Of a stretch of DNA of 5,217 bases, positions 2 to 4,126 are shown piece by piece. The translations under genes and the position numbers were made by a program. The notes under the pieces were generated by a model, which saw only the letters and a list, made by a program, of their open reading frames with translations, did not search any database and was not told the origin of the DNA. The DNA is from Deltaproteobacteria bacterium (GTDB taxonomy: Bacteria > JAUYMQ01), in the NCBI GenBank assembly GCA_030698575.1, contig JAUYMQ010000426.1:1-5217 (forward strand). Direction: 5' to 3'. Within the stretch, counting starts at the first letter, position 1; every line of letters begins with the position of its first letter.

Positions 2-115
2 TTCATCCAGGCCGTGATGGACCTGGTTACCTACGACACGACCTCCGGCCCCGGCACGCGCCTCACGATGATCAAGCGCCGGAAGGCTGGCAGTGAGGAA
101 GGGGATCCCGCGTGA
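2..115 (+). CDS. RsbW/SpoIIAB-like ATP-binding protein (probable serine kinase / anti-sigma factor), C-terminal end only
   Basis: An open frame enters from the left edge and ends at TGA 113-115, giving 37 visible residues. They include MDLVTYDTTSGPGTRLTMIK, which resembles the last strands of the HATPase_c (GHKL, Bergerat-fold) domain in RsbW-type kinases, where a G-x-G-T-R-L-x-M-x-K stretch precedes a short basic end. Members of that family use ATP to phosphorylate a serine in a STAS-domain antagonist and often bind a sigma factor. The very next gene is such a STAS protein and overlaps this one by 4 bases, which strongly supports the call. The ATP-binding N, G1 and G2 boxes lie outside the window, so activity cannot be judged. 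The order kinase-then-antagonist is the reverse of the usual rsbV-rsbW or spoIIAA-spoIIAB order. A histidine-kinase-like protein is a less likely alternative. Confidence 0.68.
   Translation, partial: FIQAVMDLVTYDTTSGPGTRLTMIKRRKAGSEEGDPA
95..104 (+). promoter_or_regulatory. Ribosome binding site supporting the GTG start of the STAS gene
   Basis: The purine run GAGGAAGGGG ends 7 bases before GTG at 112. It lies inside the end of the upstream kinase-like reading frame. It decides the non-ATG start and fits a coupled gene pair. Confidence 0.6.
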
Positions 116-456
116 GCGCACAGTTCGAGGTCCTGCTCGAGATCAGCGACGGGCTGGCGGTGCTCGCCGTGCATGGCGAGGTCGACATGCACAGCTCTCC
201 CAAGGTTCGTGAGGCGCAGGGCAAGGCGCTGCAGGGCGGCACGCGGGGCGTCGTGGTCGATCTTTCCGGCGTCGGCTACATGGACAGCTCGGGAATCGCG
301 ACGCTCATCGAGGGGCTGCAGCGCGCGAAACGCGAGGGGCGCAATTTCCGCCTCGTCGGGTTGACCCCCTCCGTGCGAGACGTGTTCGATCTCGCCCGCC
401 TGGCCGACGTGTTCGAGATCTTTACAACGCGCGACGAGGCCCTGAAAGCCACCTGA
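112..456 (+). CDS. STAS-domain protein, anti-sigma factor antagonist type / possible MlaB-like subunit
   Basis: This 114-residue protein is one STAS domain, the usual length for RsbV/SpoIIAA proteins. The early strand (VLAVHGEVDM, about 17-26) matches the family's G-E-x-D motif. VVVDLSGVGYMDSSGIATLI (47-66) holds the D58-S59-S60-G61 phosphorylation loop, with S59 at the position of SpoIIAA Ser58. LVGLTPSVRDVFDLARLADVF (about 81-101) is the usual C-terminal helix region. The GTG start is chosen because AAGGGG (99-104) lies 7 bases upstream and because the GTGA overlap with the preceding kinase-like gene is typical of translational coupling. The MlaE permease gene begins 30 bases downstream. 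Two roles are possible: a partner-switching antagonist freed or blocked by phosphorylation, or the cytoplasmic STAS subunit of the Mla transporter (as MlaB is in E. coli). The sequence identifies the domain securely but not the role. Confidence 0.93.
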   Translation: MSAQFEVLLEISDGLAVLAVHGEVDMHSSPKVREAQGKALQGGTRGVVVDLSGVGYMDSSGIATLIEGLQRAKREGRNFRLVGLTPSVRDVFDLARLADVFEIFTTRDEALKAT

Positions 457-486
457 CCGCGCCCCCCGCCGGAGTCGCACGCTCCC

Positions 487-1323
487 ATGCCCGATTCCCG
501 CATCCTGACCCGGTCGCTCGGCCTGATTGGCCGGAACGGCATTGCGCTCCTCCGGCACACCTCGAGCGTCTGGTGGCTCCTCATGGAGACGCTCCGCTGG
601 GTCCTCCACCGGGCGCGCCGCCGCCGGCTGCTCGGTGACGGCGCCATCCTCCGGCAGATGGAGGAAATCGGCCTCCGCTCGCTTCCCATCATCGCACTCA
701 TCGCCCTTCTCATTGGTGTGATTCTTGCGATGCAGACCTTCTTCCAGATGAAGCGCCTGGGCGCAGAGAGCCTCATCGGCGGCATGGTGGCGGTGGCGCT
801 CACGCGTGAGCTGGCGCCGCTCCTCACGGCGCTCGTGGTCGCGGGGCGCGTGGGCGCGGCCTTCACGGCCGAGATCGGCAGCATGAAGGTGACCGAAGAA
901 GTGCTCGCGCTCGAAACCATCGGCATCAATCCGGTGGGGTTTCTCGTCGCACCGCGCTTTCTTGCCATGACGATCATGCTGCCGGCCCTCACGGTTTTCG
1001 CCGTCGTTCTCGGAATCATGGGGGGCTGGGCTCTGGGCGCGGGAAACTTCGGCATGTCGACGGGAGGTTACTTCGACAGCGCGCGGGATTCGCTCGTCCT
1101 GAAGGACTTCGTCTCCGCCGGTGTCAAGTCGGTCGTGTTCGGCTGGATCATCGCCCTCATGGCCTGCTACCGGGGCCTCATTGTGGAAGGGGGGCCGGAG
1201 GAGGTGGGGCGCGGGACGATGGAGGCGGTCGTGTCGTCGATGGTCCTGATCGTCGTGGCGGATTTCTTCATCACGGGGCTTTTCTATTACTCCTTCTACC
1301 TGTTCAAGGTGCCCATTCTGTAG
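487..1323 (+). CDS. mlaE: MlaE-family ABC transporter permease (phospholipid transport)
   Basis: This 278-residue protein is the inner-membrane permease of an MCE-type lipid ABC transporter. An N-terminal amphipathic, basic stretch (about 8-50, including RARRRR 42-47) precedes hydrophobic segments near 66-86, 97-120, 157-182, 209-228 and 246-272, the normal MlaE (formerly DUF140) layout. The family signature is clear: T106-R-E-L-A-P-L-L-T, then VAGRVGAAFTAEIGSMKVTE (118-137), ALETIGINPV (141-150) and the C-terminal ACYRG...EEVGRGTMEAVV (226-249). Length is close to E. coli MlaE at about 260 residues. MlaE dimers form the membrane channel that exchanges lipid with the periplasmic MlaD ring. 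The ATG at 487 gives a full N-terminal elbow helix, although its Shine-Dalgarno (GGAG 471-474) is 12 bases away and weak. The gene lies 30 bases after the STAS gene and 39 before the ATPase gene, so co-transcription is likely. Confidence 0.96.
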   Translation: MPDSRILTRSLGLIGRNGIALLRHTSSVWWLLMETLRWVLHRARRRRLLGDGAILRQMEEIGLRSLPIIALIALLIGVILAMQTFFQMKRLGAESLIGGMVAVALTRELAPLLTALVVAGRVGAAFTAEIGSMKVTEEVLALETIGINPVGFLVAPRFLAMTIMLPALTVFAVVLGIMGGWALGAGNFGMSTGGYFDSARDSLVLKDFVSAGVKSVVFGWIIALMACYRGLIVEGGPEEVGRGTMEAVVSSMVLIVVADFFITGLFYYSFYLFKVPIL

Positions 1324-1362
1324 CGCGGGCGCGGGGACAGCGTCAGCGCGGCGGAGAGCTGG

Positions 1363-2187
1363 ATGAGCAACGCGACGGCTGAGAGCGCGGGGAGAGAGCC
1401 CGTGATCCGGATCGAGAATCTCGAGAAGCGATTCGGCGATCGGCCGGTCTACGACGCCGTCTCCTTCGACGTGATGGAGCGCGAGATCACGGCGGTGATC
1501 GGCCTCTCGGGCGAGGGGAAGAGCACGCTGCTCAGGATTCTATCGGGGACAATGAAGCCCGATGCAGGGCGGGTGCTGGTGAGAGGCAAGGACATCACCG
1601 GCCTGTCGCCCGACGGGCTGCGGGACTGGCAGAAGCGCTTCGGGATGCTGTTTCAGGGGTCGGCGCTCTTCCATTCCATGACGGTCGGCGAGAACGTGGC
1701 GCTTCCCATCCTCGAGCACACCGAGCTCGACCGGAACGTCGTGGACCTCATGGTGAAGCTCAAGCTCGAGATGGTCGGCCTTTGGGGCTTCGAGAACTTC
1801 CGGCCCTCCCAGCTCTCCGGCGGAATGCAGAAGCGCGTTGCGCTCGCGCGCGCGATTGCCCTCGATCCCGAGCTAATCTTCTGCGACGAGCCGACAGCCG
1901 GGCTCGACCCCATCGTCGCTAGTGTCATCGTGAAGCTCATCATGGATCTTCGCGAGAAGCTCCGCATCACCGCGGTTGTGGTAACTCATGACGTCGAGTA
2001 CGCCTTCCGCATGGCCGACCGGGTGATCATGCTCTACCGGGGCCGCGTGGTGGTCAGTGGTTCACCGGAGGAGCTGAGGAATCACCCCGATCCGGTGCTC
2101 CAGCAATTTCTGAGTGGGAGCCCCGAGGGGCCCATTCCCATGCGGCGGTCCGGCGAAGAGTTCCTGGCCGATCTATTGAAGCAGTAA
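1363..2187 (+). CDS. mlaF: MlaF-family ABC transporter ATP-binding protein
   Basis: This 274-residue cytoplasmic ATPase powers the MlaE permease. All ABC motifs are present: Walker A GLSGEGKST (47-55, K53), Q-loop Q98 in MLFQGSALF, signature LSGGMQKR (151-158), Walker B LIFCDE (171-176, catalytic E176), D-loop AGLDP (179-183) and the switch histidine H209 in VVVTHD. The M-Q-K-R form of the signature is typical of MlaF/Ttg2A/Mkl-type ATPases rather than sugar or peptide importers. Beyond the nucleotide-binding fold, HPDPVLQQFLSG...EGPIPMR...ADLL (241-272) aligns well with my recollection of the C-terminal extension of E. coli MlaF, which wraps the partner ATPase and contributes to MlaB binding. 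The ATG at 1363 has GGAG (1353-1356) 6 bases upstream. The mlaD-like gene starts 19 bases after the stop. I see no damaged motif, and the protein should be active. Confidence 0.97.
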   Translation: MSNATAESAGREPVIRIENLEKRFGDRPVYDAVSFDVMEREITAVIGLSGEGKSTLLRILSGTMKPDAGRVLVRGKDITGLSPDGLRDWQKRFGMLFQGSALFHSMTVGENVALPILEHTELDRNVVDLMVKLKLEMVGLWGFENFRPSQLSGGMQKRVALARAIALDPELIFCDEPTAGLDPIVASVIVKLIMDLREKLRITAVVVTHDVEYAFRMADRVIMLYRGRVVVSGSPEELRNHPDPVLQQFLSGSPEGPIPMRRSGEEFLADLLKQ

Positions 2188-2206
2188 CGGAGGGCGGGCG
2201 GAAAGC

Positions 2207-3166
2207 ATGGAATACTCACGAACCGAGATCGGAACGGGCCTCATGATCGTGGCCGCCGGGCTGCTGGCGGCGGTGGTCATATTCGTGGTCGGCGATTTCA
2301 GGAATCTTTTCACCCCGCGCATCAGGCTGGAGATCGTCTTCGACGAATCGCACGGCATCAAGCGCTACGCCGAGGTGCGCTACGCCGGTGTGAAGATCGG
2401 GCAGGTTGATGCCATCGATCTCGATCAGGAACACGGGCAGCGCGTGGTGCTCGGCGTGATGGTTCAGCGCGACGCCGAAGTACAGGAAGGCGCGGTGCCG
2501 CGGATCAAGACGCTCGGCTTCCTCGGCGAACGCTACGTGGCGATCGAGCCGCCCGAGAAGCAAGGCCGCACGCTGAGCGACGGGGAGCGGCTGGAGGGGC
2601 GCACCACCGTGCCGCTGGAGGACATCGGCGCCGTGCTGGGCGATCTCACCGACCAGATCGGGGAGACTCGCAATCAGCTCGATTCACTCCTGAACGACAA
2701 GGAATTCCAGGAGAACCTGAAAGCCACGGTCAAGAACGCGCGGGAGATGACTGCCGAACTCCAGGGCCTTCTATCGGAGAACCGCGCCGCCATCGGCGAA
2801 ACACTGGCCAGCACGCGCTCCGCCACGAGCGAGCTCGACGAGCTTCTCACGAAGCACAAGGACGATCTGTCCACGACGCTCGGGAATCTCGCCAGCCTCT
2901 CCGAAAAGCTCGACGCCATGGCCAACGATCTGGAGGTGCTGGCCGAAAAGAGCCGCGGCCTCATGGACCGGAACGATCAGGAGATCGACGGAACCATCGC
3001 GGATCTCCGGGCCACGGCCCGGAACGCGCGCGAGCTTTCGTCCGATCTCAAGCGACACCCGAATCGGCTCATCAAGATCTTCCCTGATCTGTTCCCCTGG
3101 GGCGGCGACGATGGTGACGACAAGGAAGATGAGGACGCGGCGGCCGGCGCGGCGGCTACGCCCTGA
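2207..3166 (+). CDS. mlaD: MlaD-like MCE-domain protein with extended C-terminal helical region
   Basis: This 319-residue protein is the periplasmic substrate-binding component of the lipid transporter. A single uncleaved N-terminal membrane anchor spans about 10-29 (GLMIVAAGLLAAVVIFVVG). The MCE domain covers roughly 39-115, with the family's F-D...V-R-Y-A-G-V-K-I-G-Q-V (45-67) and the strand pair ending G-F-L-G-E-R-Y-V-A-I-E-P (104-115). Residues 142-282 are almost wholly predicted helix or coiled coil, lacking proline and rich in Leu, Glu, Lys and Ala. RHPNRLIKIFP (283-293) matches the N-P-x-R-L type ending common in long MCE proteins. The tail (301-319) is Asp/Glu- then Ala-rich and probably disordered. 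E. coli MlaD has about 183 residues, so this is an elongated form that could make a longer helical tube. The start ATG has two purine runs upstream (GGAGGG 2189-2194 and GGAAAG 2200-2205). It follows mlaF by 19 bases and probably ends the operon core. Confidence 0.94.
   Translation: MEYSRTEIGTGLMIVAAGLLAAVVIFVVGDFRNLFTPRIRLEIVFDESHGIKRYAEVRYAGVKIGQVDAIDLDQEHGQRVVLGVMVQRDAEVQEGAVPRIKTLGFLGERYVAIEPPEKQGRTLSDGERLEGRTTVPLEDIGAVLGDLTDQIGETRNQLDSLLNDKEFQENLKATVKNAREMTAELQGLLSENRAAIGETLASTRSATSELDELLTKHKDDLSTTLGNLASLSEKLDAMANDLEVLAEKSRGLMDRNDQEIDGTIADLRATARNARELSSDLKRHPNRLIKIFPDLFPWGGDDGDDKEDEDAAAGAAATP
2717..3052 (+). repeat. Diverged internal protein repeat within the MlaD helical region
   Basis: Two 16-residue helical segments, residues 171-186 (bases 2717-2764) and 267-282 (bases 3005-3052), share the pattern L-(K/R)-A-T-(V/A)-(K/R)-N-A-R-E-(M/L)-(T/S)-x-(E/D)-L. 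They are 96 residues apart, near the start and end of the helical region. The DNA copies have diverged, so this is an old or convergent helix repeat and not a recent duplication. Confidence 0.45.
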
Positions 3167-3204
3167 CCACGCCCCGGCAGAATCCCTTCCCCTGCGTTCC
3201 GCTT

Positions 3205-3238
3205 GCCGCGCGAGGGCGTGTTGCGGGAGACGCGCGGC
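3205..3238 (+). repeat. GC-only inverted repeat (hairpin) between mlaD and the methyltransferase gene
   Basis: GCCGCGCG (3205-3212) and CGCGCGGC (3231-3238) are perfect 8-base reverse complements around an 18-base loop. The hairpin sits in the 93-base spacer, 38 bases after the mlaD stop and 21 bases before the preferred methyltransferase ATG. No T-run follows it, so it is not a standard intrinsic terminator. It could stabilise the upstream mRNA end, pause transcription or hinder translation of the next gene. Chance is possible in such GC-rich DNA. Confidence 0.4.
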
Positions 3239-3259
3239 TGTGAGAGGCTGGGCCGGCAG

Positions 3260-4126
3260 ATGAAACCCGGACGACCCAGCTTCACGGCCGAAGGTGCCGC
3301 CGCCATCAGGGCGCTCGAGACCCTTCGGCCCCTGCGCCTTCGCATCTTCGAAGATCCCTACGCGAGCGCGTTCCTGAGCCGCCGCACACGCTGGCGCACC
3401 TGGGTGGGCTTGCGCCTTCTGATCGAACGCCTGATGGAACGCGCGCTTCCCGGCGTGATCCCCTTTACGGTCGCGCGGGCGCGCTGGATGGACGATCTTC
3501 TCGTCGAGCTTGCCCCCCGCGCCGAGCAGATCGTCATTCTCGGCGCCGGTTACGACACCACCTTCGCCCGGCACCCCGAACTCCCCCGCCGACTCGCCTA
3601 TTTCGAGGTCGATCATCCCGACACGGGCCAGGCCAAGCGTGCGCGCATCGCGGCGCGGCCGGAACTTTTCGGCGACTCCTACGACAAGGTGCGGTCGGTT
3701 GCTGTCAATTTCGAGCGCGAGAACCTGATCGAGCGCCTCGGGGAGAACGGTTTTGATCTCGGCAAGCAAACGGTTTACGTCTGGTCGGGCGTCATTCCCT
3801 ACCTCGAGCGCTCCGCGGTGGAATCGACCCTCAGGCAACTCGCGCGCTCGGCATCCGGCAGCCACATCATGGCGGATCTCGTGGCCGCGCGAGGGCTGAA
3901 ACACAAGCACGCTTCCCGGACGCTCCGCTACTTCAAGAAACTCGGTGAATCGATCCGGTTCATGATGGATCCGGAGGACCTCAAGACGATCATCGCGCCC
4001 GTCGGGCTGCACGTCGAGTCGGTGGTGATGGGAGAATCGCTGCGCGAGATGTACTTCAAGCCCGAGGATCCCCGGCGTGTTTCGAAGTTCGCCTACCTCG
4101 TCCATCTGCGGACAGGATCGGGTTGA
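3260..4126 (+). CDS. LCMT-family (TIGR00027-like) class I SAM-dependent methyltransferase
   Basis: The 288-residue product resembles leucine carboxyl methyltransferase-like O-methyltransferases (PF04072). RPSFTAEGAAAIRALE (5-20) and the D-P-Y-A stretch (32-35) are the family's N-terminal hallmarks. ILGAGYDTTF (93-102) is the SAM-binding motif I. YFEVDHPDTGQAKR (114-127) carries the acidic residue after strand 2. VAVNFERENL (147-156) is the family's later D/N-F motif, and VWSGVIPYL (174-182) is the W-x-G-V-x-x-Y-L motif. No signal peptide is seen, so it is cytosolic. The frame is also open 19 codons upstream to a TTG at 3203, but family similarity starts just after this ATG and the TTG lies beside a GC hairpin, so the ATG is preferred. 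The Shine-Dalgarno (GAGAGG 3242-3247) is distant. The substrate cannot be read from sequence. The gene follows mlaD by 93 bases and may be read through from it. Confidence 0.9.
   Translation: MKPGRPSFTAEGAAAIRALETLRPLRLRIFEDPYASAFLSRRTRWRTWVGLRLLIERLMERALPGVIPFTVARARWMDDLLVELAPRAEQIVILGAGYDTTFARHPELPRRLAYFEVDHPDTGQAKRARIAARPELFGDSYDKVRSVAVNFERENLIERLGENGFDLGKQTVYVWSGVIPYLERSAVESTLRQLARSASGSHIMADLVAARGLKHKHASRTLRYFKKLGESIRFMMDPEDLKTIIAPVGLHVESVVMGESLREMYFKPEDPRRVSKFAYLVHLRTGSG

Follow-up and report, generated by a model that had tools for sequence, protein, structure and literature searches.

A conserved operon suggests partner-switch control of an Mla-type lipid transporter through its STAS protein

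Thr52 of the E. coli STAS protein MlaB lies near the centre of the interface with the transporter ATPase MlaF (PMC7367683). The phosphomimetic substitution T52E lowers MlaF binding (PMC7367683), T52A abolishes ATPase activity although MlaB stays bound (PMC7367683, PMC5016091), and when MlaB is missing, MlaF becomes unstable within the complex (PMC7367683; PMC5016091). On the MlaF side, a C-terminal extension wraps onto the neighbouring subunit, with Tyr261, Leu265 and Leu266 in the MlaF–MlaB groove (PMC7367683). Phosphoregulation of the MlaB STAS domain at Thr52 was hypothesised in 2016 and again in 2020, with no kinase known (PMC5016091, PMC7367683).

Here we describe a locus in which kinase and STAS genes run directly into the genes of such a transporter (Table 1). 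The stretch of DNA that was analysed (5,217 nucleotides, hereafter the window) is the complete contig C344 of a genome that comprises 653 contigs and is 91.6% complete. We think it likely that the locus belongs to a conserved operon in which a partner switch, made up of a SpoIIE-type phosphatase, an RsbW-like kinase and a STAS protein, has MlaF and not a sigma factor as its output, and in which phosphorylation of S59 of the STAS protein blocks the engagement of MlaF. No description of a kinase–STAS–mla cluster was found in the open-licence PMC literature, where searches on Mla and partner-switch proteins yield the two MlaB papers cited above. The components are of known kinds; against that literature, what appears to be new is their combination into a partner switch whose output would be a transporter ATPase.

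Table 1. Features of the window, with the basis of each assignment
Feature	Position	Strand	Basis or remark
RsbW-like serine kinase (HATPase_c_2), C-terminal end	2..115	+	Alignment to kinase C-termini
STAS protein with RsbV/SpoIIAA-like topology, proposed counterpart of MlaB	112..456	+	GTG start; phosphosite S59, helix signature A63-T64-E67
S59 codon, predicted phosphorylated residue, MlaB Thr52 equivalent	286..288	+	Ser in 45/46, Thr in 1/46 distinct Mla-linked STAS
mlaE, lipid ABC transporter permease	487..1323	+	Pfam MlaE, TIGR00056, tree clade
mlaF, transporter ATPase	1363..2187	+	Pfam ABC_tran
MlaF C-terminal extension (SGSPEGPIPMRRSGEEFLADLLKQ), equivalent of the E. coli 'handshake' at the MlaF–MlaB interface	2113..2184	+	Alignment; PMC7367683
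mlaD, MCE-domain lipid-binding subunit, long C-terminal region	2207..3166	+	Pfam MlaD

The gene layout read in the initial annotation stands in all its parts: the kinase frame and the STAS gene share 4 bases, where the stop of the one meets the start of the other (GTGA, 112-115), the STAS protein has an intact DSSG loop with S59 (Y56-M57-D58-S59-S60-G61), and mlaE, mlaF and mlaD follow at gaps of no more than 39 bases (STAS–mlaE 30, mlaE–mlaF 39, mlaF–mlaD 19). Pfam matches identify STAS (E-value 4.5e-23), MlaE (2.5e-77), ABC_tran (9.4e-33) and MlaD (1.7e-16), and the match of the window MlaE to TIGR00056 is above cut-off; the permease, the ATPase and the MCE subunit lie together in one operon. 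Downstream, 3' of mlaD, come an LCM-type methyltransferase and then a MoeB/ThiF-type adenylyltransferase; no mlaC was found in the window or its operon, and MlaA is likewise absent from the window. The MlaD protein, 319 residues long with a long region past its MCE domain and encoded in an operon lacking mlaC, recalls the bridge-like MlaD of Veillonella (PMC10665443). The same genome holds a second Mla-like cluster on contig C390 (L016 of genome G000, 9102-14540), which is arranged in pairs, mlaE-mlaE-mlaF-mlaF-mlaD-mlaD, looks like a heterodimeric lipid transporter and has downstream of it two similar proteins, each about 500-530 residues long (14587-17766).

Since the window is a complete contig, its kinase is truncated by the contig end. 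What the window retains is a frame ending in FIQAVMDLVTYDTTSGPGTRLTMIKRRKAGSEEGDPA and a stop codon, and this segment can be aligned to the C-terminal end of RsbW-like kinases. An N-terminal part is found at the very end of another contig of the same genome, C449 (5282-5587; HATPase_c_2, 1.2e-17), and contains the N box DEACTNVIRHAY and the G1 Asp (DEG). The C449 frame stops at ...RPRPLDQI and the window opens with FIQAVMD; because relatives have DEVRPGGLGTHFIQSIMDEV across this junction, the two contig ends appear to be halves of one kinase gene, and from their exact fit we infer that they join. By reading frame, eight residues (~23 bases) are missing at the junction between C449 and C344, and these include the G2 box (PGGLG in relatives). 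The full kinase, whose N and G boxes the initial annotation had singled out for confirmation, is therefore recovered in part: the N box and G1 Asp are present on C449, whereas the G2 box falls within the contig gap and is seen in relatives. In the alignment the N box and the G1 Asp are conserved, and the ATP-binding and catalytic motifs are intact across all lineages; the kinase of the Nitrospinae locus L047, for example, matches HATPase_c_2 at 1.2e-25. Before the kinase, C449 encodes a REC-SpoIIE phosphatase of the PPM type (4031-5272; SpoIIE, 8.8e-47), and upstream of this a cNMP-GAF-HisKA-HATPase sensor kinase (2068-3939). Read together, the orders on C449 and in the window would place before the mla genes an unbroken series that runs from the sensor through phosphatase and kinase to the STAS protein.

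About 75 other genomes, from at least five groups of phylum rank among others, have the order kinase-STAS-mlaE-mlaF(-mlaD), in many cases with SpoIIE at its head. So do five named records: Nitrospina (L046, L048), another Nitrospinae bacterium (L047), an unclassified bacterium (L049) and a Phycisphaerales bacterium (L050). A sample of 192 genomes from across bacteria contains 157 with MlaE, and kinase-STAS-mlaE is present in 16, under 14 family codes; in the window genome, this order spans two contigs. A kinase of this type (E below 1e-41) occurs in 62 of the 82 genomes searched in the phylum of G045, where kinase-STAS-mlaE was seen at each of the 30 loci read. The corresponding counts for three more groups at phylum level are 9/9, 24/30 and 2/2 loci; six of 30 loci of one phylum had no mlaE detected next to the module, two of the six being short loci. 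The gene preceding the kinase is usually SpoIIE, and in five genomes (G029, G040, G067, G113, G176) SpoIIE and kinase are fused. These fused SpoIIE-RsbW-like proteins, of about 560-600 residues, lie directly 5' of STAS and mlaE (L124 3854-5605, L125 1635-3350, L126 4444-6174, L128 4393-6132, L066 1922-3307) and combine opposing activities in a single chain.

Recurring as it does in many distant genomes, the gene order is not due to chance, and the adjacency, which had at first been seen in this one stretch of DNA, proves widespread. That kinase and STAS genes, usually together with a phosphatase gene, stand directly before lipid transporter genes suggests that transport is switched by phosphorylation. 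On balance we also favour a broader reading, by which a widespread class of Mla systems, in several phyla, is under post-translational control by a dedicated partner switch that targets a STAS protein of MlaB type, so that the MlaB phosphosite would have a natural kinase.

Within the STAS protein, S59 directly follows an Asp and takes the position of Thr52 of E. coli MlaB; its equivalents in the classical switches are Ser58 of SpoIIAA and Ser56 of RsbV. All 46 distinct Mla-linked STAS proteins have Ser or Thr at this invariant phosphosite (divided as given in Table 1), and all 46 have A63, T/S64 and E67 on the helix that follows. Among 15 other, non-Mla STAS proteins, G63 is found in 12 and E67 in 4, and Ser or Thr occupies the phosphosite in all 15; a conserved Ser alone is thus not diagnostic. 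Two STAS proteins with no adjoining mla gene also show the helix signature of the Mla type (A63, E67), at L133 4742-5083 (G110) and L132 836-1288 (G143).

The prevalence of Ser/Thr at this site in STAS proteins generally, as in those 15, would also fit a STAS protein that is a constitutive MlaB-like subunit, with S59 kept for structure or for ATPase activity and with the kinase and phosphatase serving another substrate or occasional turnover; E. coli MlaB likewise requires T52 for ATPase activity, with no kinase known (PMC5016091). We regard a constitutive subunit as improbable, given that the kinase motifs are kept across all lineages, that the kinase stays adjacent to the STAS gene, and that the window genome has only one such kinase (HATPase_c_2, RsbW-like, above cut-off) and only one such STAS protein (RsbV-like, at E <= 1e-10).

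The family membership of the STAS protein bears on a different possibility. Its profile match to TIGR00377 (anti-sigma antagonist) scores 82 bits, above cut-off, whereas that to the MlaB equivalog NF033618 (NCBIfam) reaches 28.8 bits where the cut-off is 90; by profile the protein falls outside the family of E. coli MlaB, which it resembles in position. The solved proteins to which it is most closely related are anti-sigma antagonists. We also predicted a structure with AlphaFold2 from an in-frame STAS-MlaE-MlaF read-through of the window (691 residues, 13 alignment rows). This pseudo-fusion reached a mean pLDDT of 75 and a pTM of 0.46 with MlaF poorly modelled, and it includes a confident STAS fold in which S59 starts a helix (59-74) and a last strand and helix are of SpoIIAA type. 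Neither of these two additional elements is present in MlaB (PMC7367683). With these additions and an MlaB score below cut-off, the STAS protein might bind the kinase only; it would then be an RsbV-type kinase antagonist and nothing more, the target of the kinase would lie elsewhere (a sigma factor, for example), and the mla genes would be co-transcribed targets or passengers. The profile scores, the solved relatives and the modelled extra elements all speak for such an antagonist. Against it stand the linkage to mlaE across many families, a neighbouring MlaF that has the MlaB-interface extension, and the lack of a sigma factor in the annotated neighbourhoods or above the SigB/F/G cut-off in the genome, both set out below, and we consider it unlikely.

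The window MlaF ends in GPIPMRRSGEEFLADLLKQ, and E. coli MlaF in GPVPFRYPAGDYHADLLPGS; the aligned part reads GEEFLADLL in the former versus GDYHADLL in the latter. Scored as a [YFL]xxx[LIM] motif at the MlaF C-terminus, the extension is present in 17 of 17 readable MlaF proteins of kinase-linked loci, and in E. coli MlaF, and in none of 26 MlaF proteins from loci without a kinase and separate STAS gene, among them the genome's own paralogue in C304; a short, differently spaced tail at L038 was counted as absent. The association of extension and kinase amounts to only two to three independent contrasts on the tree, all concordant. We view the accompanying MlaF extension as strong circumstantial evidence, not proof, that the STAS protein would occupy the site of MlaB.

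In the MlaE tree, all sampled kinase-linked MlaE proteins, the window's included, fall in one clade with support of 100/99, and E. coli MlaE lies in a different clade. Six other MlaE proteins are nested in the kinase-linked clade, five with long N-terminal extensions and one from G143; for the latter mlaE, no mlaF or mlaD was detected within several kilobases. The N-terminal extensions are of about 100-150 residues (L114 3048-4142, L118 3096-4325, L119, L123, L129), and of these only L114 and L118 match STAS. At these loci no kinase adjoins and the readable MlaF is without the C-terminal extension, as if fusion of STAS to MlaE had replaced the docking element of MlaF.

As to other partners in the genome, no sigma-factor gene was noted in the neighbourhoods whose open frames were listed, and no SigB/F/G-type sigma factor lies above cut-off in the 91.6% complete window genome. 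A sigma factor as output, with none in the annotated neighbourhoods and none past the SigB/F/G cut-off genome-wide, is unsupported; no output other than the transporter accompanies the partner-switch module. The initial annotation had proposed one STAS protein in a dual role, bound to transporter and kinase alike, with a possible link to a sigma factor. The dual role receives indirect support from the MlaF extension and from the published position of the equivalent residue at the MlaB–MlaF interface (PMC7367683), whereas the sigma-factor link is not supported. That this STAS protein would serve the transporter itself, in place of a separate MlaB-like gene, agrees with the genome, where no second RsbV/MlaB-like STAS protein was found at E <= 1e-10.

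We envision the switch as follows. In its unphosphorylated form the STAS protein would take the place of MlaB, contacting the helical subdomain of one MlaF and the C-terminal extension of the partner MlaF, and would thereby support assembly and activity of the ATPase. The kinase would bind the same helical face of the STAS protein, making the two interactions mutually exclusive, and would phosphorylate S59. With S59 at the centre of the interface, the phosphorylated protein is proposed to be unable to engage MlaF, and transport would drop until a SpoIIE phosphatase, here the REC-SpoIIE protein encoded after the cNMP-GAF-histidine kinase, responds to a signal by taking the phosphate off and so restores transport. 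The proposed sign, in which the unphosphorylated STAS protein supports MlaF, is drawn from the E. coli results with T52E and with MlaB loss. Since T52A MlaB is bound yet inactive, control through binding alone may be too simple.

Sequence cannot give the sign, and in classical switches the output protein is bound by the kinase and not by the STAS protein. Both points leave some room for the opposite arrangement, in which the phosphorylated STAS protein activates or assembles the transporter, or free kinase inhibits MlaF and the STAS protein relieves it. The reduced MlaF binding of T52E, and the repulsion predicted for a phosphate at the centre of the interface (PMC7367683), argue against such a reversal, which we rate as very unlikely.

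If MlaF is indeed the output of the switch, phospholipid traffic between the two membranes could be adjusted quickly by signals, and the reach of partner switching would include the direct control of a transporter ATPase. The gene order is spread over many little-studied bacteria and bears on the E. coli phosphorylation proposal, which was left unexplained; as the cluster pairs candidate kinases and phosphatases with the transporter, MlaB phosphoregulation becomes testable with native protein sets.

Among known systems, HsbR-HsbA of Pseudomonas, SypE-SypA of Vibrio and the Btr proteins of Bordetella resemble the locus in that a STAS protein is switched by a kinase and phosphatase; we know of no transporter ATPase as output in any of them. 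MlaE proteins that have a STAS domain fused to their N-terminus share the tie of STAS to permease, and five such or similar proteins nest in the kinase-linked clade; unlike the window, they hold STAS and permease in the same chain, have no kinase beside them, and their readable MlaF is without the extension. With E. coli MlaFEDB the locus has in common MlaE, MlaF, MlaD, a small STAS protein, a Ser/Thr at the Thr52 position and the MlaF extension, and it differs in its longer RsbV-like STAS protein, in the lack of mlaC in the window and in an MlaE of another clade. A kinase gene, and usually a phosphatase gene too, adjoins the transporter genes here, whereas the E. coli mlaFEDCB operon has, to our knowledge, neither. 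With RsbU-RsbW-RsbV and SpoIIE-SpoIIAB-SpoIIAA, finally, the cluster has all three protein families in common, and it conserves their catalytic motifs and the phosphosite; it differs from both in that the cluster is without a sigma factor and an ABC lipid transporter stands in the output position.
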